Below, in pieces: positions 10,803 to 19,557 of a stretch of 64,000 nucleotides of DNA (positions within the stretch are counted from its first letter, which is position 1; each line of letters opens with the position of its first letter). The translations under genes were made by a program, and so were the position numbers. A model generated the notes under the pieces. It was not told where the DNA came from, ran no database searches, and saw only the letters and a program-made list of their open reading frames with translations. This DNA comes from Nocardioides marmorisolisilvae (lineage in GTDB: Bacteria > Actinomycetota > Actinomycetes > Propionibacteriales > Nocardioidaceae): contig NZ_RJSG01000005.1 of NCBI RefSeq assembly GCF_003725775.1, positions 867-64,866 on the forward strand, in the 5' to 3' direction.

Positions 10803-13800
10803 CTAGAACGGCTTCTCGGTCGGTGTAACACCGCCGCTGGGTTCAGTGTTCCCCGCGATCCCGGTCGGGTTGGCCGACGGTCCGTTATTCGGAACGGGCG
10901 TCCGCGTGGGCTGCGGTGTGAACGGCGTCGACGGGGCGAACGGGATCCGCGGCTGCTCGGTCGGCTTCTTCGTCGGCTTCTTGGTCGGCGTCGCCTTGGG
11001 CCCGTTCACGAACGGCTCGTCGGTCACCGGTACGGCGTAGACGACAGAGTTCGACAGGTAGACCGACCCGTTGAAGTCCGAGCAGGTGATCAGCACCAGG
11101 CGGCCGGGGCCCTGCAGGGTGAAGATCGAGGCGGCGTCACGGGCCAGCGTCGCGGTCGAGTAGACGCGCGAACGCTGGACGACGTAGCCGATCCAGCCGG
11201 CATCGGTCCGCACCCGGATGGTGTCGCCGGCGACGAGTTCACCCAGGTGGTCGAACGCGCCACCACCGGTGTGCACGGTGTGACCGGTCACGACGGCCGA
11301 GCCGTTCTCGGCGCCGGCGCCGCGACCCTCCTGCCACCAGCCCAGGACCTGCGGGTCATCCGGCGGCAGCAGCTCGCCGGTCTGACCGCTGATCGGAACG
11401 ACCTGCGAGTCGACCTTGAGCCGCGGGACCTGGACTTCGAGCGGGTCACCGGCCGAGGCCAGGGCGCGGCCGGCCAGCGGGCCACCGGGCTGCTGGATCC
11501 CGACCGGACCGTTGAAGCCACCGGTGTTCGGGTCGATGACCGGGTCGATCACCTGCGGGGTCTGGGCGCTGTCCGGGAACAGGTTCGAGATCGTGGACGG
11601 GACCGCCGGCACCAGGAACGGGACAGCGGCGCACACGCACAGGAAGCCGACGACGGCGATCACCTTGGCGGCCTTCTGCGTGCGGGTCGCCGGACGCTTG
11701 GGGGCGCGCACCAGCGGGATCGCGTTCGCCTTCGCAGCGCGCTTGCGCTCGCGGCGGGTGCGCGGCGGGTGCTCCGGAGCCCAGTCCTCGGGCAGCGAGT
11801 CCTCGGGGTCGGCCTTCGGGTCGATGACCTCGACCGGGTCGTCAGCAGCCGCGATCGGTGCGTCGACGATCGGCGCATTGCCGTGCCGCAGCACGCTGAC
11901 GTCACGCAGGAACCCGGCCGCGAAGTCAGCCGAGTCCTCGTCCGGAACGACAACCACGTGCAGGGCATCGGCCTCGGCGGCGGCTTCCTGAGGAGCTTCT
12001 GCTTCGACGCTGGGTTCCTGCGGTTCCGCAGGCGTCTCGACGGGCTTGGTCTCGGTAGCGCCGAAGAGCGCGGCGAGCTGCGTTGCCCGCCAGGAGTCCG
12101 GGTCCGGGCCGGGCACGCGGCCCTTGCCGACCAGGGACTGGTCAGCCGGCGCTTCCTCCACCGGGGCGTCCTCGACCGGGGCCTCCTCGACCGGCGCCTC
12201 CGCCGCGGGACCGTCCTCGAGCGGCAGCCCGATGACCTCGTCCTCGTCGTCACGCGCGGCCTTCTTGCGACCGAACCACCCGCGCTTCGGCTGGGGCTCC
12301 TCGACGGGCTCGGCGACCTCGGGCTCGGCGACCTCGAGCTCGGCGTCCGCGAGGACGGCCACGGGCTCGGGGGTTTCGACAGGCTCAACCGGCGAGGGTT
12401 GCTCCGGCTCGGTCTCGAGCTGGACCTCAGCCTCGGGCTCCGCCTCGACCGGCGGCGTTGCCGCGGCCTCGACGATCTCGGGCGCAGCCTTCTTGCGCCG
12501 GAACCGACCGCGCTTCTTGGGCTCGTCTTCGATCGCCTGGGGAGCAGGCTCCTCGACGACCTCAACGGGGTGGTCGTCGCGAGGGGCGACGAGGCCGAAG
12601 AACGCGGCGACGTCCGGGTCGAGTGCGGCAGCCGGCGGAGCGTCTACGAGCTCGGGCTCATCTGTCTCGACTGCAGCGGTCGCCTCGGTCGCCTCGGCGA
12701 CGGGCTCGTCGATCGCAGGGGCCTCGACGAGGGCGTCCTCGGCAACCGGAGCTTCCTCGACCCGAGCTTCCTCGGCGGGGGCTTCCTCGACAACCGCAGC
12801 GTCCTCGACGTCCGCCGGAGCGGCGACCTGCTCCTCGGACTCGAGCCCGCTCAGACCAAAGAACGCCGCGACGTTGGAGTCGAGGGAGAGCGCCTCTTCG
12901 ACCTCAGGAGGCGTCTCGACCCGCTTGCTCTTGCGCCACCAGCGACCCTTCGGCACCGGCGCGGGCACTGCCGGGGATGCCGGGGGCGCGGGGGTTTCGA
13001 CAGGCTCAACCAGCGAGGTCGGCTCGGGGGTTTCGACAGGCTCAACCAGCGAGGTCGGCTCGGGGGGTTCGACGAGCTCAACCAGCGAGGCCGGCTCGGG
13101 GGTTTCGACGAACTCAACCGGCGAGAGCTCTTCGGGTTCGACGTACCAGTCAGCCCCGGCGTACGCGGGCTGCTCGGGCTCGACGAACGCGGGCTGCTCC
13201 GGCTCGACGTACGACTCCGGCTCGAAGAAGGGCTCGGGCTCGAAGAAGGGCTCGGGCTCGAAGTACGGCTCCGGCTCTGGCTCCGACTCCGACGGAGCGG
13301 GCGCCAGGAAAGCTGGCGGCTCCCAGACGGGCTCGGGGGTTGAGACGGGCTCGGGGGTTGAGACCGGCTCGGGGGTTTCGACAGGCTCGACCAGTGCGGT
13401 CGGCTCGGGCTCGGCGACCACGGCCGGCTCGGGCCAGTGAGCGGCCGGACCGAACAGCGCAGCCAGGGTCGGGTCCGAGATGAAGGACTCGGGTCCCGGA
13501 GGCGGTGCCGGCTCTGCTTCTGCCTCGACGACCGCTTCAGGGATTTCGACAGGCTCAACCAGCAAGTCGGACTGAGGCTCAACCACCGCGGCCGGCTCGG
13601 GGGTTTCGACAGGCTCAACCGGCACGTCGGGCTCGGGCTCGACCAACGCGGCCGGCTCAGGGGTTTCGACAGGCTCAACCAGCACATCGGGCTCGGGCTC
13701 AACCACCGCGGCCGGTTCGGGGGTTTCGACAAGCTCAACCGGCAAGTCGGGCTCGGGCTCCGGGAGCCGCTGTTCGACGATCGGCGGAGGCGGAGGGATG

Positions 13801-14483
13801 AACGGCGGGGGCGGCGGGGTTTCGACAAGCTCAACCAGCGAATCCGGCTCAGGCTCACCCAGCGCATCAGGCGCGGGCTCCGGAGTGCGCTGCTCGACGA
13901 CGGTAGGCCCCGACGTCATGCCGAAGAGCGCAGCCAGGGTCGCGTCGAGCTCAGCCGGGTCGGGCTGGCCCTCCAGGGGCTCCTCGCTCGGAGGAGCGTC
14001 CGCGTTTCGCGCGCGGCTCAACCAGCGTCGGCGTGGTGCCTCGAGCACGTCGTCCGCCCCCCTTTCCATCTCCGGCGTCTCCGCCTCGCCACCCATCATC
14101 TCGCTGAGACCAACAGTCACGGCAGTGACGTCCGGGTGAATGTTCTTGTGCCGCGTGCGGCGCTGCTGCTCCTCGGCGGTCGGCTCGTTGTCCGTCTCGG
14201 CGGGTGCGGCGCCGTCGAGGGTCACGACGGACCCCTCCGAACCCTCCGAGCGCGGAAGCCCAGCGGTCGGTGACGCGCTGGGCTTCTGCGACTCCGCCGG
14301 GGCGGAGGGTGGTTCAGGTGTGGTGTCGGTCGGTTCGGGTGGAGCCGGAAGGCTCCGGTCCTGTTCCTCCCGACGCCACGGGATCAGCGCCGTGACACCG
14401 ACCACGAGAAGGCTGAGAGCGACGTTGCGAAGTCCCCTCCGAACGCCGCTCCCGGCCTTACTCGAGTCAGCTACGAGAGGCAC
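10803..14483 (-). CDS. giant sortase-domain membrane protein with long disordered region
   Basis: The protein has 1226 residues. The C-terminal part (about 1010-1155) is a sortase fold with His1068 in TGHTVH and Cys1134 in LITCSD. A membrane span (about 941-962) precedes it and a Thr/Pro-rich tail of about 70 residues follows. The first 936 residues are almost entirely Pro/Glu/Ala-rich and disordered. They carry about eleven copies of VE(P/L)VETPEP, five AA(L/F)FG motifs ending at residues 188, 345, 543, 630 and 808, and four Lys/Arg boxes with Trp or Phe (for example PKGRWWRKSKR). No Arg follows Cys1134 at the usual distance. The GTG start overlaps the upstream surface gene by 17 bp. The first 40 residues (including ALSLLVVGVTALI) are uncertain, and a later start near residue 120 is possible. 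It probably cleaves or anchors the neighbouring surface proteins. Confidence 0.75.
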   Translation of the reverse strand: MPLVADSSKAGSGVRRGLRNVALSLLVVGVTALIPWRREEQDRSLPAPPEPTDTTPEPPSAPAESQKPSASPTAGLPRSEGSEGSVVTLDGAAPAETDNEPTAEEQQRRTRHKNIHPDVTAVTVGLSEMMGGEAETPEMERGADDVLEAPRRRWLSRARNADAPPSEEPLEGQPDPAELDATLAALFGMTSGPTVVEQRTPEPAPDALGEPEPDSLVELVETPPPPPFIPPPPPIVEQRLPEPEPDLPVELVETPEPAAVVEPEPDVLVEPVETPEPAALVEPEPDVPVEPVETPEPAAVVEPQSDLLVEPVEIPEAVVEAEAEPAPPPGPESFISDPTLAALFGPAAHWPEPAVVAEPEPTALVEPVETPEPVSTPEPVSTPEPVWEPPAFLAPAPSESEPEPEPYFEPEPFFEPEPFFEPESYVEPEQPAFVEPEQPAYAGADWYVEPEELSPVEFVETPEPASLVELVEPPEPTSLVEPVETPEPTSLVEPVETPAPPASPAVPAPVPKGRWWRKSKRVETPPEVEEALSLDSNVAAFFGLSGLESEEQVAAPADVEDAAVVEEAPAEEARVEEAPVAEDALVEAPAIDEPVAEATEATAAVETDEPELVDAPPAAALDPDVAAFFGLVAPRDDHPVEVVEEPAPQAIEDEPKKRGRFRRKKAAPEIVEAAATPPVEAEPEAEVQLETEPEQPSPVEPVETPEPVAVLADAELEVAEPEVAEPVEEPQPKRGWFGRKKAARDDEDEVIGLPLEDGPAAEAPVEEAPVEDAPVEEAPADQSLVGKGRVPGPDPDSWRATQLAALFGATETKPVETPAEPQEPSVEAEAPQEAAAEADALHVVVVPDEDSADFAAGFLRDVSVLRHGNAPIVDAPIAAADDPVEVIDPKADPEDSLPEDWAPEHPPRTRRERKRAAKANAIPLVRAPKRPATRTQKAAKVIAVVGFLCVCAAVPFLVPAVPSTISNLFPDSAQTPQVIDPVIDPNTGGFNGPVGIQQPGGPLAGRALASAGDPLEVQVPRLKVDSQVVPISGQTGELLPPDDPQVLGWWQEGRGAGAENGSAVVTGHTVHTGGGAFDHLGELVAGDTIRVRTDAGWIGYVVQRSRVYSTATLARDAASIFTLQGPGRLVLITCSDFNGSVYLSNSVVYAVPVTDEPFVNGPKATPTKKPTKKPTEQPRIPFAPSTPFTPQPTRTPVPNNGPSANPTGIAGNTEPSGGVTPTEKPF
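12371..13840 (-). repeat. in-frame cluster of the dispersed GTTTCGACAGGCTCAACC repeat
   Basis: Copies start near 12371, 12993, 13029, 13065, 13110, 13373, 13541, 13601, 13661, 13721 and 13817. All lie inside the sortase gene in the same orientation and frame, and each is read as VE(P/L)VETPEP on the minus strand. The four from 13541 to 13740 are spaced exactly 60 bp apart, a tandem duplication of a 20-residue unit. The same sequence occurs outside genes at 7862 and 57716-57751. Confidence 0.85.
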
Positions 14484-15588
14484 CTCGGACCGGACGCAGG
14501 CCCAGACCGCCGGCGACCACCATCATGATCATGCCGGAGACGAGGAGGGCCAGGCCCTGCTCGCTGCGCAGGTCGTTGGTGACGGTCGTACCGGTCAGAC
14601 CGGCGTGGACGACGGTCGGCGTGGCAACCGACGGGGTGGCCGTCGGAACGTCGACCACATCGCAGTCGCCGACCTCGGCGAAGGTGTGCTCCCAGTGCGT
14701 CTGAGCACCCTCGGCGAGGACGTTCGGGTCGATCGCAGTCGCGTCAACGTCCACGGTGCCGCCGGGGACCAGGTCGCCGGTGACGACGTAGTGCACGCCG
14801 TCGACGTCCTTGGTCTCGATCTCCGGGCCGGCAACCTTCTTCTCCGGGACGGGGATCTCGGTGACCGGAGCCGGGTCCGGCAGGATGACGGCCGGGTCGG
14901 TGTCACAGGTCGGCTCGGTGAACTCCGGGGCGACCGGGGTGACCTCGGTCGGCGGGATCACGATGTCGCAGATCTCGGCCGCGTCGAAGTCGCCCTGGAT
15001 GACGAGCTGGGTCTGGTCCGCACCGTCGAAGGTGAAGCCCTGGTCGGCGGTGAAGGTGACGACCCAGTGGCCGCCCGGAGCCGAGCTGCCGCTGACGACG
15101 TAGGTCGCGTTCTGAGCGATCGGGTCGAGGCTCGGGGTGTTGTCGTTGTCGCAGTCCGGCTGCGTGACGTCGACGTCAGCGTTGGCCCGCGGGGTGTCGC
15201 CGTCGCAGCTCGCGGCGGTGATGTCACCGTCGTACTCGTGGAAGTTGCCCTGGTCGTCGGTGAAGGAGCCGATCAGGTCCGGCTTCGGGTCACCGGCGCT
15301 GTGGGCCTTGCCCTCGAAGGTGCCGTCGCTCTTCCACTTCTTGTTCGGGTCCTCGCGGTGCTGGAGGTGACCCTTGAGCTTGACCGAGTCGTCGTCGACG
15401 GAGATGAAGACGTACGGGTTCGAGTCAGAGCTGGTCGCGTGACAGATGCCGACCTTGTTCGCTGCCGCGTCCGCCGAGGTGGCGGTGGCCAGCAGCGCGA
15501 CGCCGCTGGACATGGTCAGCGCGCCGAAGGCGGCGATAACGGTGGCTACGCGACGCATGCGCGGACGCGTGGACTTCTTAATCCCCAT
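14467..15588 (-). CDS. secreted surface protein A of the sortase cluster
   Basis: The precursor has 373 residues and a signal peptide (ATVIAAFGALTMSSGVALLATATSA, then DAAAN). The mature N-terminus carries the domain ICHATSSDSNPYVFI...GHLQHREDPNKKWKSDGTF, also present in protein B. Two Cys-bracketed beta-domains follow; the last shares HYVVTGDL and THWEHTF with protein C. The C-terminus reads PTVVHAGLTG, then RSEQG, a hydrophobic span, and RPVRGASRS, a sorting-signal layout without LPxTG. The gene overlaps the sortase start by 17 bp, so the two are co-translated. Ligand and role are unknown. Confidence 0.8.
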   Translation of the reverse strand: MGIKKSTRPRMRRVATVIAAFGALTMSSGVALLATATSADAAANKVGICHATSSDSNPYVFISVDDDSVKLKGHLQHREDPNKKWKSDGTFEGKAHSAGDPKPDLIGSFTDDQGNFHEYDGDITAASCDGDTPRANADVDVTQPDCDNDNTPSLDPIAQNATYVVSGSSAPGGHWVVTFTADQGFTFDGADQTQLVIQGDFDAAEICDIVIPPTEVTPVAPEFTEPTCDTDPAVILPDPAPVTEIPVPEKKVAGPEIETKDVDGVHYVVTGDLVPGGTVDVDATAIDPNVLAEGAQTHWEHTFAEVGDCDVVDVPTATPSVATPTVVHAGLTGTTVTNDLRSEQGLALLVSGMIMMVVAGGLGLRPVRGASRS

Positions 15589-15782
15589 GTTGTGTGCCCC
15601 AGATCAGTAGTGCGGTACGGAAGTGCCCCCCAGGGCACGTAGTGACTTATCGAATGCCTCAACGAGTGGTTGCGGCAAAGGGTGATACACGCGGTCTAGT
15701 CCGCAAATCCGGACAAACCGCTACCAAACGCTTCGATACGTTTGGAATCAACTAGTTCTCGGCCTCAGGCGGGCATGCCGAA

Positions 15783-15812
15783 GTGGCGCACGGCACGTCT
15801 GCCGTGCGCCAC
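15783..15812 (-). terminator. hairpin terminator downstream of surface protein B
   Basis: GTGGCGCACGGCA and TGCCGTGCGCCAC form a perfect 13-bp stem with a 4-nt loop (CGTC), beginning 12 bp after the stop of the minus-strand surface gene. There is no T tract, as is common in high-GC actinobacteria. It separates surface protein B from surface protein A. Confidence 0.7.
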
Positions 15813-15823
15813 CTCGACAAGGG

Positions 15824-16642
15824 TCAGCGGCGGGCGCCCCGCGGCCGGGCGAGGCCGGCAGCAGCCACCATCAGCAGCAGGCCCGAGGCCAGCAGCGCCA
15901 TGCCCTGCTCGGTCCGCAGGTCCGAGACCGTCACCGGGGTGCCGATCAGACCGGCGTGCACGACCGTCGGGGTCGCGACCACCGGCGGCTTCGGCTCGGT
16001 CGGCGGAGTGACGGTGCAGTCCGCGGCGTCGCTGAAGGTGTGATCGAACTGGAGCTCCTGGGCGTCGTCGGCGAAGGTGTAGCCGTCGTCGACGGTCGCG
16101 GTCACGGTGACCGACTCACCCGGAGCAACGGTGCCTTCGAGCGCGAAGGTCACGTGGTCGCCCTCGGTCGAGTACGACGGGCTGTTGTCGTTGGCGCAGC
16201 TCGGGTCCACGAACGTCGCGCTCGCGGTCGTCTCGACCGGCGGCGGGACGTCCTGGTTGCCACAGGTCTCGGAGTTCACCACACCGTCCAGCACGACCAG
16301 GTTGCCCTCGGGGTCGGTGTAGTCACCGATGATGTCCGGCTTCGGCTGACCCTTGGTGTGCGCGACGCCGTTGAAGGTGCCGTCCGACTTCCACCTCTTG
16401 TTGGGGTCGTTGCGGTGCTTCAGGTGGCCCTGCAGCTTCACGGAGTCGTTGTCCACCGTGATGAAGGTGTACGGGTTCGAGTCCGAGCTGGTCGCGTGGC
16501 AGATGTTCACGGGCGTCTTGTCCGCGTTGGCCGCCGGTGCCGCGGCGAGCAGGACGACCCCGCTGCCCATCACCAGGGTGCCGAGCGCCGCGACGAAGGT
16601 CGCGATCCGCCGGCGCGAGCGCTGCTGTGATCTCGTGGTCAT
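15824..16642 (-). CDS. secreted surface protein B of the sortase cluster
   Basis: The protein has 272 residues. The start ATG (MTTRSQQ) follows GGGGGC. The signal peptide contains ATFVAALGTLVMGSGVVLLAAA and ends near ANADK. The first domain is a close paralogue of that in protein A (NICHATSSDSNPYTFITVDNDS, GHLKHRNDPNKRWKSDG). One Cys-bracketed beta-domain follows, with DHVTFALEGTVAPGESVTV and FDHTFSDAADC, matched in protein C. The tail is PTVVHAGLIG, RTEQG, a membrane span and RPRGARR. Strong conservation of the tail across three otherwise diverged neighbours suggests a shared processing signal. Confidence 0.8.
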   Translation of the reverse strand: MTTRSQQRSRRRIATFVAALGTLVMGSGVVLLAAAPAANADKTPVNICHATSSDSNPYTFITVDNDSVKLQGHLKHRNDPNKRWKSDGTFNGVAHTKGQPKPDIIGDYTDPEGNLVVLDGVVNSETCGNQDVPPPVETTASATFVDPSCANDNSPSYSTEGDHVTFALEGTVAPGESVTVTATVDDGYTFADDAQELQFDHTFSDAADCTVTPPTEPKPPVVATPTVVHAGLIGTPVTVSDLRTEQGMALLASGLLLMVAAAGLARPRGARR

Positions 16643-16896
16643 GTGGTGCCCCCAGACGTTCGAGTGAAGAGAGTGAGTAGAGGGAGGTAGAGCCCCGCCC
16701 GAACGACGCCTCCTGCCATGGAAATCCGTGGCGCTGACTACCAGCAATGACCCTCTTGGGTGGTATCCACAGGACGATCCCGACATACCGGGACCAAGCG
16801 TTCTCCACAGCCCGCACCGTGGGACCTCCCTCGGACTGCGGTGACTCCGGAGTAGGCTCGCGCCACCTCGACACCCCGACAGCACGGAGGCCCTGC

Positions 16897-17556
16897 GTGA
16901 CCACCCCGGCGACCTCGGCCGACGGCGACCGGCCGGCCACCCGCGGAGCCCGTCTGCCGCGCCGTGCCCGACGGGCCCAGCTGCTCGAGTCGGCCCTCGA
17001 GGTCTTCGTGGCCCAGGGCTACCACTCGGCAGCGATGGACGACATCGCCGAGAACGCAGGGGTCTCCAAGCCGGTGCTCTACCAGCACTTCCCCGGCAAG
17101 CTCGACCTCTACCTCGCGCTGCTCGACCAGGCCGTCGACAAGGTGATCACCGGGACCCGCGAGGCACTGGAGTCGACCGAGGACAACAAGCAGCGCGTCG
17201 CGGCCACGATGAGCGCCTTCTTCTCCTACGTGGCCAGCGAGCAGGGCGAGTTCCGCCTGGTCTTCGAGTCGGACCTGACCAACGAGCCCGCCGTGCGGGA
17301 GCGGATCGACCGGGTGACCAAGGACTGCGCGGACCTGATTGCGCACGTCATCCACGACGACACCGGCCTGCCGGACGAGGCCTCCCAGCTGCTGGCCGTC
17401 GGCCTGGTGGGAATGGGTCAGGTCAGCGCCCGGTTCTGGCTCCAGGACCGTTTGCGCGGGAGTGACACCATCGAGCAGGCAGCTGCTGGGAACCTGGTGG
17501 CAGGCCTGGCCTGGCGCGGGATCCGGGGATACCCGCGGAACGACGACAACGTCTGA
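16897..17556 (+). CDS. TetR-family regulator (Rv3208-like)
   Basis: The GTG start follows GGAGG with a 6-nt spacer and gives 219 residues. The helix-turn-helix is seen in ALEVFVAQGYHSAAMDDIAENAGVSKPVLYQHFPGK. The remainder is an alpha-helical TetR ligand-binding domain (VFESDLTNEPAVRERIDRVTKDC). It is followed 90 bp downstream by DUF3107, the same pair as Rv3208/Rv3208A. The upstream gap of about 250 bp is shared with the divergent surface protein B, so TetR could control that promoter. No clear palindromic operator was recognised there. Confidence 0.88.
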   Translation: MTTPATSADGDRPATRGARLPRRARRAQLLESALEVFVAQGYHSAAMDDIAENAGVSKPVLYQHFPGKLDLYLALLDQAVDKVITGTREALESTEDNKQRVAATMSAFFSYVASEQGEFRLVFESDLTNEPAVRERIDRVTKDCADLIAHVIHDDTGLPDEASQLLAVGLVGMGQVSARFWLQDRLRGSDTIEQAAAGNLVAGLAWRGIRGYPRNDDNV

Positions 17557-17561
17557 CCCTT

Positions 17562-17957
17562 CGACAGGCTCAGGGGAACCGGCACACTGTCCCCCAGCAG
17601 CACCGAGACCACATTTCACGCACCACACTTCAGGGAGGTCCTCCGGATGGAGGTCAAGATCGGCGTCCAGAACGCCAACCGCGAGCTCACCGTCGACACC
17701 GATCTCGACGCTGACGCCGTCGAGAAGCAGATCGCCGCGGCACTGTCGGGCGGCGGGCTGCTGACGCTGACCGACGCCAAGGGCCGCCGGGTCGTCGTAC
17801 CGGTGGAGAAGCTGGCGTACGTCGAGATCGCGAACAGCACGGCCGGACAGGTCGGCTTCCGCAGCTGATCGAGGACGCGCCAGCGGACTCGATCGTCGGT
17901 GGTTGAGCAGCGAGGGCGACTGAGGGACGAAGTCGCCACCGAGCGTGTCGAAACCGG
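17562..17957. repeat. degenerate fragments of the dispersed repeat flanking DUF3107
   Basis: CTTCGACAGGCTCAGG (17562-17577) is a partial copy just after the TetR gene. GGTTGAGCAGCGAGG (about 17900) and CGAGCGTGTCGAAACC (to 17957) form a longer degenerate copy after DUF3107, with an inner GGCGACT...AGTCGCC inverted repeat. They flank, but do not interrupt, the DUF3107 gene. Confidence 0.5.
17647..17868 (+). CDS. DUF3107 small protein
   Basis: This 73-residue protein begins MEVKIGVQNANRELTVDTD behind a strong ribosome-binding site (AGGGAGG). It matches DUF3107 throughout, including the ALSGGGLLTLTDAKGRRVVVP core. The family is actinobacteria-specific, with Rv3208A (TB9.4) as the mycobacterial member, and is always next to a TetR gene. 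The fold is expected to be a small beta-rich domain. Its molecular role is unknown. Confidence 0.92.
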   Translation: MEVKIGVQNANRELTVDTDLDADAVEKQIAAALSGGGLLTLTDAKGRRVVVPVEKLAYVEIANSTAGQVGFRS

Positions 17958-17964
17958 ACAAGCA

Positions 17965-18002
17965 AGCGGGGGCGGTACGGCGAACGCCGTACCGCCCCCG
18001 CT
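17965..18002. terminator. strong bidirectional terminator
   Basis: AGCGGGGGCGGTACGGCG and its reverse complement form an 18-bp stem with only two unpaired bases, followed on the plus strand by GCTTTGTC. It lies between DUF3107 (plus) and surface protein C (minus), which converge here, so it can serve both. It is one of the strongest hairpins in the window. Confidence 0.8.
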
Positions 18003-18008
18003 GCTTTG

Positions 18009-19301
18009 TCACCGGCGGTTCACGCTGCTGGGGCGCAACCCGAGGCCACCGGCGAGAACGAGCAGCGCCACTCCCAGCGCTACCAGGACCCGGCCCTGCT
18101 CGGTCCGCGGGTCCACCGAGGGAACCGCTCCGATCAGGCCGGCGTGGACGACGGTCGGCGCGACCACCACGGTCGGGTCGACCACCGGCGGCGAGACCGC
18201 CGGGCAGTCCTCCGGAACCGTGAAGGTGTGCTCCCAGTGCGTCGGCTCGCCTTCTCCGATCACGAACCCGGGCAGCGCGCTGGCGTCGACGTACGCGGTC
18301 TCACCGGCCTTGAGGCTGCCGCTGACCACGTAGTGCACGCCCTCGGCATCCGAGGTCAGGATCACCGGACCGGTCGCCTTCTTGCCCTCGGACGGCGGGT
18401 CGTTCGGCACGAAGACCGAGCCGTCGGTCGTGCAGGTCGGGTCGGTGAACGACGGGTCGGTCGGTACCGCCAGGGTCGGCTCGGCGCAGTCCTCCGGAGT
18501 CACGGCCGGCCCGAAGGTGTGCTCGAACCCGATCGAGGTCGAGTGGTCGGAGTACTCGTACGGGAACACCGTGTGCGCCGTCACTGTCACCGTCTCGCCT
18601 GGTGCCACGGTGTCACCGTCGGCCAGGTCGAAGGTGGAGTGGTCGCCGCTCGTGCTGTACGACGGGGTGCTCTCGTTGGCGCAGCTCGGGTCGACGAAGG
18701 TGACCTCGGGGTCCGGTGCGATGCACTCGTCGACCGGGATCTGGGTGCTCTTCTTCCCGATGATGATGACCTTGCACGGGTCCTCGCACTCGTTCCAGTC
18801 GCCGTTCTTGTGCTTGCTCAGGATCGGCGGGCACGGGTTGCAGTCGCCGTTGTGGTGGCTGCTCACGCTCTGCTTCAGCGGCGGCTGCTCGTCGCACCCT
18901 CCGCAGTCGCCCTTGTGCTTGCTGACGCTCTTGCCCTTGTCGTCCCAGCAGCCACCGCCGCAGTCGCCGCGGTCGCTCTTGTGCTTGCCGAAGTTCTTGT
19001 CGTCGTCGTTCCAGCATCCGCCGCCACAGTCGCCGTCGTCGTCGCCCTTGTGCTTGGCGACCGACTTGCGGTCGTCATCGCCACCCCAGCAACCACCACC
19101 GCAGTCGCCGTCATCGCCGCGGTCCTTGGCAACGGTCTTGTGGTGCTCGTCATCGCCTCCGCAGTTGCCGCCGCGGTCGGACGAGCTCGCGTTCGCCGGT
19201 GCGGCCACGATCAGGGCCACACCGGTCGACAGCAGGAGCATGCCGAACAGGGCGAACACCGCCGCAGCGGCGCGCAGGTGTCGGTTCACAGAAACACTCA
19301 T
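18009..19301 (-). CDS. secreted surface protein C with Cys/Gly-rich repeats
   Basis: The precursor has 430 residues; the ATG at 19301 follows GGGAG. After a signal peptide (AAAVFALFGMLLLSTGVALIVAA), residues about 45-150 are imperfect repeats of GDCGGGCW, acidic residues, then K(S/N)V(A/S)KHKGD. The repeats are very rich in Cys, Asp, Lys and His. Two Cys-bracketed beta-domains follow, one homologous to protein B (SGDHSTFDL...VAPGETVTV) and one to protein A (HYVVSGSL...THWEHTF). The tail is PTVVHAGLIG, RTEQG, a membrane span and RPSSVNRR. The repeats could bind metal or form a disulfide-linked rod. The gene is separated from A and B by TetR and DUF3107 on the opposite strand. Confidence 0.8.
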   Translation of the reverse strand: MSVSVNRHLRAAAAVFALFGMLLLSTGVALIVAAPANASSSDRGGNCGGDDEHHKTVAKDRGDDGDCGGGCWGGDDDRKSVAKHKGDDDGDCGGGCWNDDDKNFGKHKSDRGDCGGGCWDDKGKSVSKHKGDCGGCDEQPPLKQSVSSHHNGDCNPCPPILSKHKNGDWNECEDPCKVIIIGKKSTQIPVDECIAPDPEVTFVDPSCANESTPSYSTSGDHSTFDLADGDTVAPGETVTVTAHTVFPYEYSDHSTSIGFEHTFGPAVTPEDCAEPTLAVPTDPSFTDPTCTTDGSVFVPNDPPSEGKKATGPVILTSDAEGVHYVVSGSLKAGETAYVDASALPGFVIGEGEPTHWEHTFTVPEDCPAVSPPVVDPTVVVAPTVVHAGLIGAVPSVDPRTEQGRVLVALGVALLVLAGGLGLRPSSVNRR

Positions 19302-19557
19302 CACAACTCCCCAGAAATCAGTCGTGCAGGCGCACCGCTGTCAGCGGTGTCGAGTGCTGCGTCCCGGGCCCCAGACCGGCCGCAGCGCGAGCCAGAATCG
19401 TGGAGTCGGATCGGCACCCGCCGGTACCGGAGCCGGTTGTCTAGCCAGACGAATCACGACGAAGTGGGCATGCGGCGCGAAAGCACCCAGAACTCTGACC
19501 GAACGGACGAGGCAGGTCCTGGACGACCGGGAGCCTGTCTATCGGTCGGACGCCCGA

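Follow-up and report, generated by a model that had tools for sequence, protein, structure and literature searches.

PTx[VI]xAG tails beside a class-F-like clade of actinobacterial sortases: a candidate non-LPxTG sorting signal

A sortase gene of Nocardioides marmorisolisilvae is located next to three genes for secreted proteins, here called A, B and C, that end in a common tail. This raises the question of whether the tail is the sorting signal of that sortase, as an earlier note on this DNA had proposed. The cluster lies on the minus strand of a stretch of 64,000 nucleotides (nt) (contig NZ_RJSG01000005.1, positions 867 to 64,866 of the forward strand; "the window") from the 3.83 Mb source genome, G000. 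We consider it probable (roughly 0.83) from sequence comparison that A, B and C are substrates of the neighboring sortase and that their tail, composed of PTx[VI]xAG, a spacer, a span through the membrane and a basic end, serves as a non-LPxTG signal for sorting to the cell wall.

The tail motif and its co-occurrence with the sortase

The C-termini of A, B and C consist of PTVVHAGL[TI]G, R[ST]EQG, a hydrophobic span and a basic end, and the genes lie near the sortase gene (Table 1), all as described in the earlier note. The absence of LPxTG and LAxTG was confirmed, as L[PA]xT[GA] occurred in none of the three tail proteins. Their mature parts are indeed mosaics: Cys-bracketed modules of about 70-90 amino acids (aa) are differently combined behind N-termini that resemble signal peptides, and identity was 62% between A and B for the CHAT domain, 57% between B and C for module I and 54% between A and C for module II. 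The core of the tail was also conserved beyond the mature part. Across eight proteins from seven genomes, PTVVHAGL had a mean column identity of 0.89. The signal peptide followed with 0.70, the span together with the basic end with 0.68, the stretch from motif to span with 0.58 and the mature part with 0.57; within the mature part, the most conserved window of eight residues came to 0.81.

Neighbors of more distant sortases had this core in a different sequence context. We tested whether the motif accompanies relatives of the sortase at the best 80 of 140 confirmed named relatives, picked by sortase alignment. A neighbor was counted when it lay on the same strand and had P[TS]x[VILF]x[AS]G ahead of a C-terminal span and basic end. 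This was the case at 76 of the 80 loci (75 with an earlier neighbor filter). Other frames in these loci with a span and basic end, taken as mechanical open frames and not as all genes, had the motif in 0/29 cases at a greater distance on the same strand and in 0/88 cases on the opposite strand. The substrate gene was upstream of the sortase gene in 82 of 85 cases.

Seventy-seven tails were aligned via the loose form Pxx[VIFL]x[AS]G, so that the fixed Pro and Gly of the alignment are partly a matter of construction. The loose form was present in 77/77 tails (mean of 2.3 after shuffling, largest value 8) and the strict form PTx[VI]xAG in 72/77 (shuffled mean 0.09, largest value 2), and plain chance as the source of the motif was ruled out by the shuffles. 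Within the loose form, Thr was found in 73 tails, Val in 69, Ile in seven and Leu in one, and Ala in 75 and Ser in two. The motif preceded the span by about 8 to 23 residues in 76 of the 77 tails. Conventional signals were rare: LPxT[GA] occurred once, LAxTG not at all, and the loose form [LNSP][PA]xT[GA] seven times. Since R[STG][EQ][QR]G was present in only six of the 77 tails, all from the sortase lineage of the window, we concluded that PTx[VI]xAG is the general core and that R(S/T)EQG is specific to the window lineage. The tail as originally described was thus kept in its widely conserved core, while R(S/T)EQG does not belong to the signal in general; the signal is wider than had been claimed and belongs to the whole sortase clade, not only to the R(S/T)EQG tails of the window lineage.

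Mature parts of 87 motif proteins, excised by a crude rule, fell into groups of 42, 15, 11, 4, 3 and 3 members and nine singles at E 1e-6, three of the singles being too short for a verdict. At E 1e-3, a level at which low complexity may merge groups, 10 groups with a largest one of 73 were obtained. Because the mature parts fall into six groups and singles, the tail is not explained by descent from a single protein. The motif was also seen in a family of the same class (f21), in which 13 of 22 genomes had a window-type sortase. A tail protein was in reach at 10 of these 13 loci, and at the other three the DNA does not extend upstream of the sortase. Eight of the tails had a full VPT[EAS]IPAG, one had TSIPAG with the first residue cut off, and one had VPTAIPAG.

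The co-occurrence of tail and sortase, which the earlier note had named as a check, was found in the genus sample of 24 genomes with the source genome included. Strong tail matches (E 1e-4 or better) and an orthologous sortase were present in the same nine genomes and both were missing in the other 15 (Fisher p 7.6e-7; this and the Fisher value below are no true probabilities, as the genomes are related and a few of the genus sample are incomplete). In the wider survey of 58 genomes of the order, strong matches were limited to the source genome and G004, G007, G008, G012, G016, G017, G019 and G021. An independent search with the sortase domain found orthologues with 68-75% identity in these eight relatives and nowhere else among the 58 genomes, the next best having 54% or lower. 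Besides A, B and C, the profile of the window tail gave one weak match in the source genome. Among six weak matches overall (E 0.003 to 0.009), the one in G038 proved to be a true tail upon translation; those in the source genome and G019 were rejected as they resemble purL by eye, and the other three looked unrelated. A scan of public genomes with the 57-aa window tail alone gave 53 pattern matches, none of which was confirmed, the query probably being too short.

A general tail profile was built from 29 diverse tails of neighbors of window-type sortases, some of them from the 58 scanned genomes. It gave 61 matches up to E 1e-4 that covered the motif, and 54 of these were within 10 kb of a window-type sortase; four of the remaining seven were beside another sortase and three stood alone. 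The wide occurrence of the tail without the sortase that would speak against the proposal was thus not seen in the 58 genomes. The three lone tails belong to secreted-looking proteins with a full signal, in genomes with a window-type sortase elsewhere, as expected for substrates in trans. Tail and sortase occurred together in 31 genomes, the sortase only in four, the tail only in one and neither in 22 (Fisher p 5e-11), and 49 of 59 window-type sortases had a strong tail match within 10 kb. In the source genome, four predicted substrates are located beside two window-clade sortases. A phylum-wide sample, with 13 candidates scored per genome, had a match in at least two of 296 genomes, namely G000 itself and G079 (111 bits; its neighbor at L183 is without the motif).

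The surroundings of the cluster were also compared. In G007 and G008 it is placed between the same flanking genes as in the window. In G004, G012, G016, G017 and G019, substrate and sortase genes were together, and none of the other tested flanking genes was present in the 16-19 kb examined, the stretch of G004 reaching a contig end soon after the sortase; the contig of G021 was too short to tell. As five of the eight relatives lack the other tested flanking genes nearby, the pair of substrate and sortase keeps together while the surroundings change.

Place of the sortase among known classes

The window sortase exceeds the curated cut-off of the superfamily model PF04203 and has the catalytic His and Cys, with Asn at the position of the usual catalytic Arg (Table 1). 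His and Cys were invariant in a 44-row domain alignment and present in 103/103 window-type domains, and Asn was present in 102/103. The same Asn was found in 66 of 70 class F domains, and Arg-to-Asn has been reported for actinobacterial class F sortases (PMC6998099; as the other published work cited here, a source available in part). The best family was the NCBIfam class F model NF033748 with 61.9 bits, below its cut-off of 166, while the class E model gave 26 bits (cut-off 160) and the class C model 17.2 bits (cut-off 160). Five relatives of the window sortase scored 50-92 bits on the class F model. As it stays below the class F cut-off, we term the window sortase class-F-like and do not file it as class F.

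Of the 118 genomes sampled from the class, 53 had a sortase above the class F cut-off. A tail protein was in reach at 44 of 70 class F loci examined, and [TA]GxGG occurred in 33 of these 44 tails (shuffled mean 4.1). PTxVxAG and L[PA]xTG were each found in 0/44 tails beside class F enzymes. The consensus of these neighbors, determined by eye from L065-L094 and L245-L284, was P-x-G-x-[VPAM]-x-[TA]-G-x-G-G. In a quick tree of 156 sortase domains, one branch with an SH-aLRT support of 97 parted 106 domains on the window side from 50 on the class F side. On the window side, PTxVxAG accompanied 94 domains, PxxVxAG three, xTGxG one and another tail one; no tail was found for seven, including the window's own sortase, for which the stretch used was too short. 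On the other side, the neighbors had xTGxG in 15 cases, PxxVxAG in nine, PTxVxAG in three and others in five, and none was found in 18. At 24 aligned positions, a residue present in more than 75% of the window-type domains (n=103) was present in less than 15% of the class F domains (n=70). Residues specific to the window clade lie in the stretches GHTVHTGGG and TCxDW.

We lean towards the view that in actinobacterial class F and class-F-like sortases a code of two dialects takes the place of LPxTG, with P-x-G-x-[VPAM]-x-T↓G-x-G-G for NCBI class F and P-T-x-[VI]-x-A↓G for the window clade (↓, predicted cut site), with the window clade accepting Ala for Thr at the cut site and with clade and dialect changing together. 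Sortases placed between the clades (L188-L193) were accompanied by intermediate signals such as SPTSVNAGNSG, APSMVKAGTGG and APGAVHAGEVG, as if the code had drifted stepwise between the clades.

In a search of PDB, the single sequence gave no match and the clade profile matched many sortases. Structure 5uus, which we take to be the Cutibacterium acnes enzyme, was matched weakly by this profile (E 1.8e-4). It is named as class F in the literature (PMC8361268). In comparison with the class F of NF033748, the window enzyme shares His, Cys and Asn as well as the position beside genes of secreted proteins with a non-LPxTG C-terminal signal; it differs in its score, in the 24 positions and in the PTx[VI]xAG motif of its neighbors, which occurs in none of the 44 class F tails. 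Class E sortase SrtE1 of Streptomyces coelicolor is likewise actinobacterial, has a cytoplasmic N-terminal part and recognizes a signal without Pro at P3, but the signal is LAXTG with Thr at P1 and the catalytic Arg is present (PMC5148588). The long inner part of the window sortase recalls the cytoplasmic tail of SrtE1, which matters in vivo (PMC5148588). The accessible part of the same paper lists sorting signals for sortase classes A to E. For class F, LPXTG, recognized by SrtF of C. acnes (PMC7913060), was the only signal met in the available parts of the openly licensed literature. SrtF1 and SrtF4 of Actinoplanes missouriensis resemble the window sortase in that their genes adjoin those of the secreted proteins AMIS_11010 and AMIS_36440, both of which end in a span and a basic tail; according to the available text, the authors find no pentapeptide motif in either, yet suspect both as substrates (PMC13251363).

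Two further sortase-domain proteins of the source genome, L005 (G000:C4:204117-204476) and L006 (G000:C4:2001723-2002028), are by eye without catalytic Cys and His. Upstream of each lies a gene for a span-ended protein, and just downstream is a gene resembling that of a phosphate ABC ATPase; it is possible that the two are non-catalytic sortases tied to phosphate uptake.

Layout of the cluster

The features of the cluster are collected in Table 1.

Table 1. Features of the sortase cluster (positions within the window).
Feature	Position	Strand	Basis
Sortase-domain protein, 1226 aa opened from GTG	10803..14483	-	Pfam/NCBIfam scans, sequence inspection
Sortase catalytic domain PF04203, residues 1017-1153	11025..11435	-	67 bits, cut-off 26.6
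Asn1145, at the aligned position of the usual catalytic Arg	11049-11051	-	alignment
Cys1134, catalytic	11082-11084	-	alignment
His1068, catalytic	11280-11282	-	alignment
Membrane span ahead of the catalytic domain, with a basic stretch before the span	11589..11663	-	sequence inspection
Part of the Pro/Glu-rich linker based on in-frame dispersed-repeat copies (E-P-V-E-T)	12373..13832	-	
Tail protein A, 373 aa: signal peptide, CHAT domain, modules I and II, tail	14467..15588	-	
PTVVHAGL of A	14596..14619	-	
Tail protein B, 272 aa: signal peptide, CHAT domain, module I, tail	15824..16642	-	
PTVVHAGL of B	15947..15970	-	
TetR gene	16747-17556	+	best NCBIfam model FasR, 238.6 bits, cut-off 330
Tail protein C, 431 aa: signal peptide, Gly/Asp/His/Cys-rich repeats, modules I and II, tail	18009..19304	-	
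PTVVHAGL of C	18135..18158	-	

The genes follow each other on the minus strand in the order C, B, A and sortase, with the TetR gene on the plus strand between C and B; G007 and G008 also have the TetR gene next to the cluster. The frames of A and the sortase overlap by 17 nt. A scan for promoters and terminators gave no signal above chance.

The sortase-domain protein begins with a hydrophobic stretch, which is followed by a Pro/Glu-rich linker of about 900 aa, the membrane span and the C-terminal sortase domain. The Pro/Glu-rich part should lie inside the cell, judged from the basic flank of the span. The orthologues in the eight genomes are open frames of 305 to 807 aa, and the closest sortases among named genomes include those of Nocardioides pocheonensis, N. 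marmoriginsengisoli and Marmoricola isolates. The 15-mer GAGCYTGTCGAAACC has 120 copies in the 3.8-Mb genome and its reversed control none. Its first 14 bases occur with up to one mismatch in 14 copies in the window versus 0.02 expected, and nine of these are in frame within the sortase gene, where they encode the E-P-V-E-T core of the linker repeats. A dispersed genomic repeat was apparently taken into the linker.

Scans of A, B and C with Pfam and NCBIfam gave no family over cut-off, and domain scans of the tail proteins of relatives were not informative. From the domain make-up, a surface role in adhesion or coat formation is a guess. The signal peptides of A, B, C and their relatives have a common stretch similar to LxMSSGxAL, which is more conserved than the mature parts and recalls the special signal peptides of other sortase substrates.

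Proposed mechanism, alternative explanations and meaning

The comparison of genomes supports well, by co-occurrence, linkage and match of the clade, that the tail would act as a sorting signal for this sortase, and very probably PTxVxAG is the tag by which this group of sortases fixes proteins to the cell wall. The signal peptide would export each tail protein, and the span and basic end would hold it in the membrane. The membrane sortase, with its catalytic domain outside, would then bind the motif, with Pro-Thr taking P6-P5, Val/Ile P3, Ala P1 and Gly P1'. This register is suggested by the alignment of [VI]xA↓G and [VPAM]xT↓G with LPxT↓G. Cys1134 would cut between Ala and Gly, hold the protein as a thioester and pass it on to the wall precursor, where an amino group would accept it; in Nocardioides, this acceptor may presumably be the glycine of an LL-diaminopimelate-Gly bridge. 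The protein would end up bound to the wall and expose its Cys-bracketed modules at the surface. We infer cut site, register, topology and transfer to the wall from sequence.

Several observations weigh against this reading. Four of the 80 relative loci were missed: L103 has no upstream DNA, as its sortase is at a contig edge, L143 has a span-ended neighbor without the motif, and L148 and L155 have VPLEVDAG and VPNQVAAG. Thr is not absolute, since one relative has PQVVHAGL. For ten of the 59 window-type sortases in the 58 genomes, the 10 kb around them contained no tail match at E 1e-4; among the 35 sortase-bearing genomes, four (G020, G026, G034 and G057) had no such match at all. Five of these ten sortases were inspected, and four adjoin a weaker or variant tail, VPTAVEAG in G020, PPSEIDAG in G026, PPTAIVGG in G034 and PTEFPGG in G057; no tail was found in the inspected neighborhood of the sortase of G014. 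Conversely, G028 has a tail and no window-clade sortase, the tail being near another class F sortase. The motif is not wholly exclusive either, and with three PTxVxAG and nine PxxVxAG neighbors among the 50 domains across the tree branch the two signals grade into each other. The window sortase has Asn for the usual catalytic Arg, and cleavage and anchoring to the wall are predicted by comparison.

Class C sortases link pilins to each other, and the window enzyme could likewise join the three tail proteins together, rather than or before fixing them to the wall. Several substrates adjoin one sortase here, as in class C clusters with their two or three pilins, and the Cys-bracketed modules are repeated. 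Two or more motif tails were present at only nine of the 80 relative loci, however, the score on the class F model was 61.9 bits versus 17.2 on that of class C, and A, B and C match no pilin family of Pfam or NCBIfam, so that we regard a pilus-like assembly as unlikely. Quite unlikely, in our judgment, is a tail that is a plain membrane anchor, with the sortase inactive or acting on other substrates. A span and a basic end do suffice for anchoring, Asn replaces Arg and cutting by the sortase is deduced, but an anchor needs neither PTxVxAG about 8 to 23 residues ahead of the span nor a strong preference for the vicinity of one sortase clade. In addition, the conservation of His, Cys and Asn in the window-type domains indicates that the sortase is under selection.

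The tails could also be alike because they belong to recent paralogues, with the sortase adjacent by chance. A, B and C are clearly paralogous, and the sequences within the genus alone could fit this explanation. It is very improbable in view of the dissimilar mature domains that bear the same motif in other genera, of the pair staying together in different genome places, and of the co-occurrence of tail and sortase over the 58 related genomes. We consequently prefer the reading of the tail as a sorting signal of the neighboring sortase.

Within the openly licensed literature, the proposed PTx[VI]xAG signal of a class-F-like clade is new, and no paper there pairs the string VPTAVDAG with a sortase. 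The accessible parts of the literature give class F no designated function (PMC6998099) and call its physiological roles unknown (PMC13251363). In A. missouriensis, two likely class F substrates were set aside for want of a pentapeptide, as far as the available text tells (PMC13251363). A defined motif makes this gap testable and would allow lists of substrates to be drawn up for soil actinobacteria. If the reading is true, the range of sortase cutting would be widened to Ala-Gly, and the clade could yield a ligation enzyme orthogonal to SrtA.

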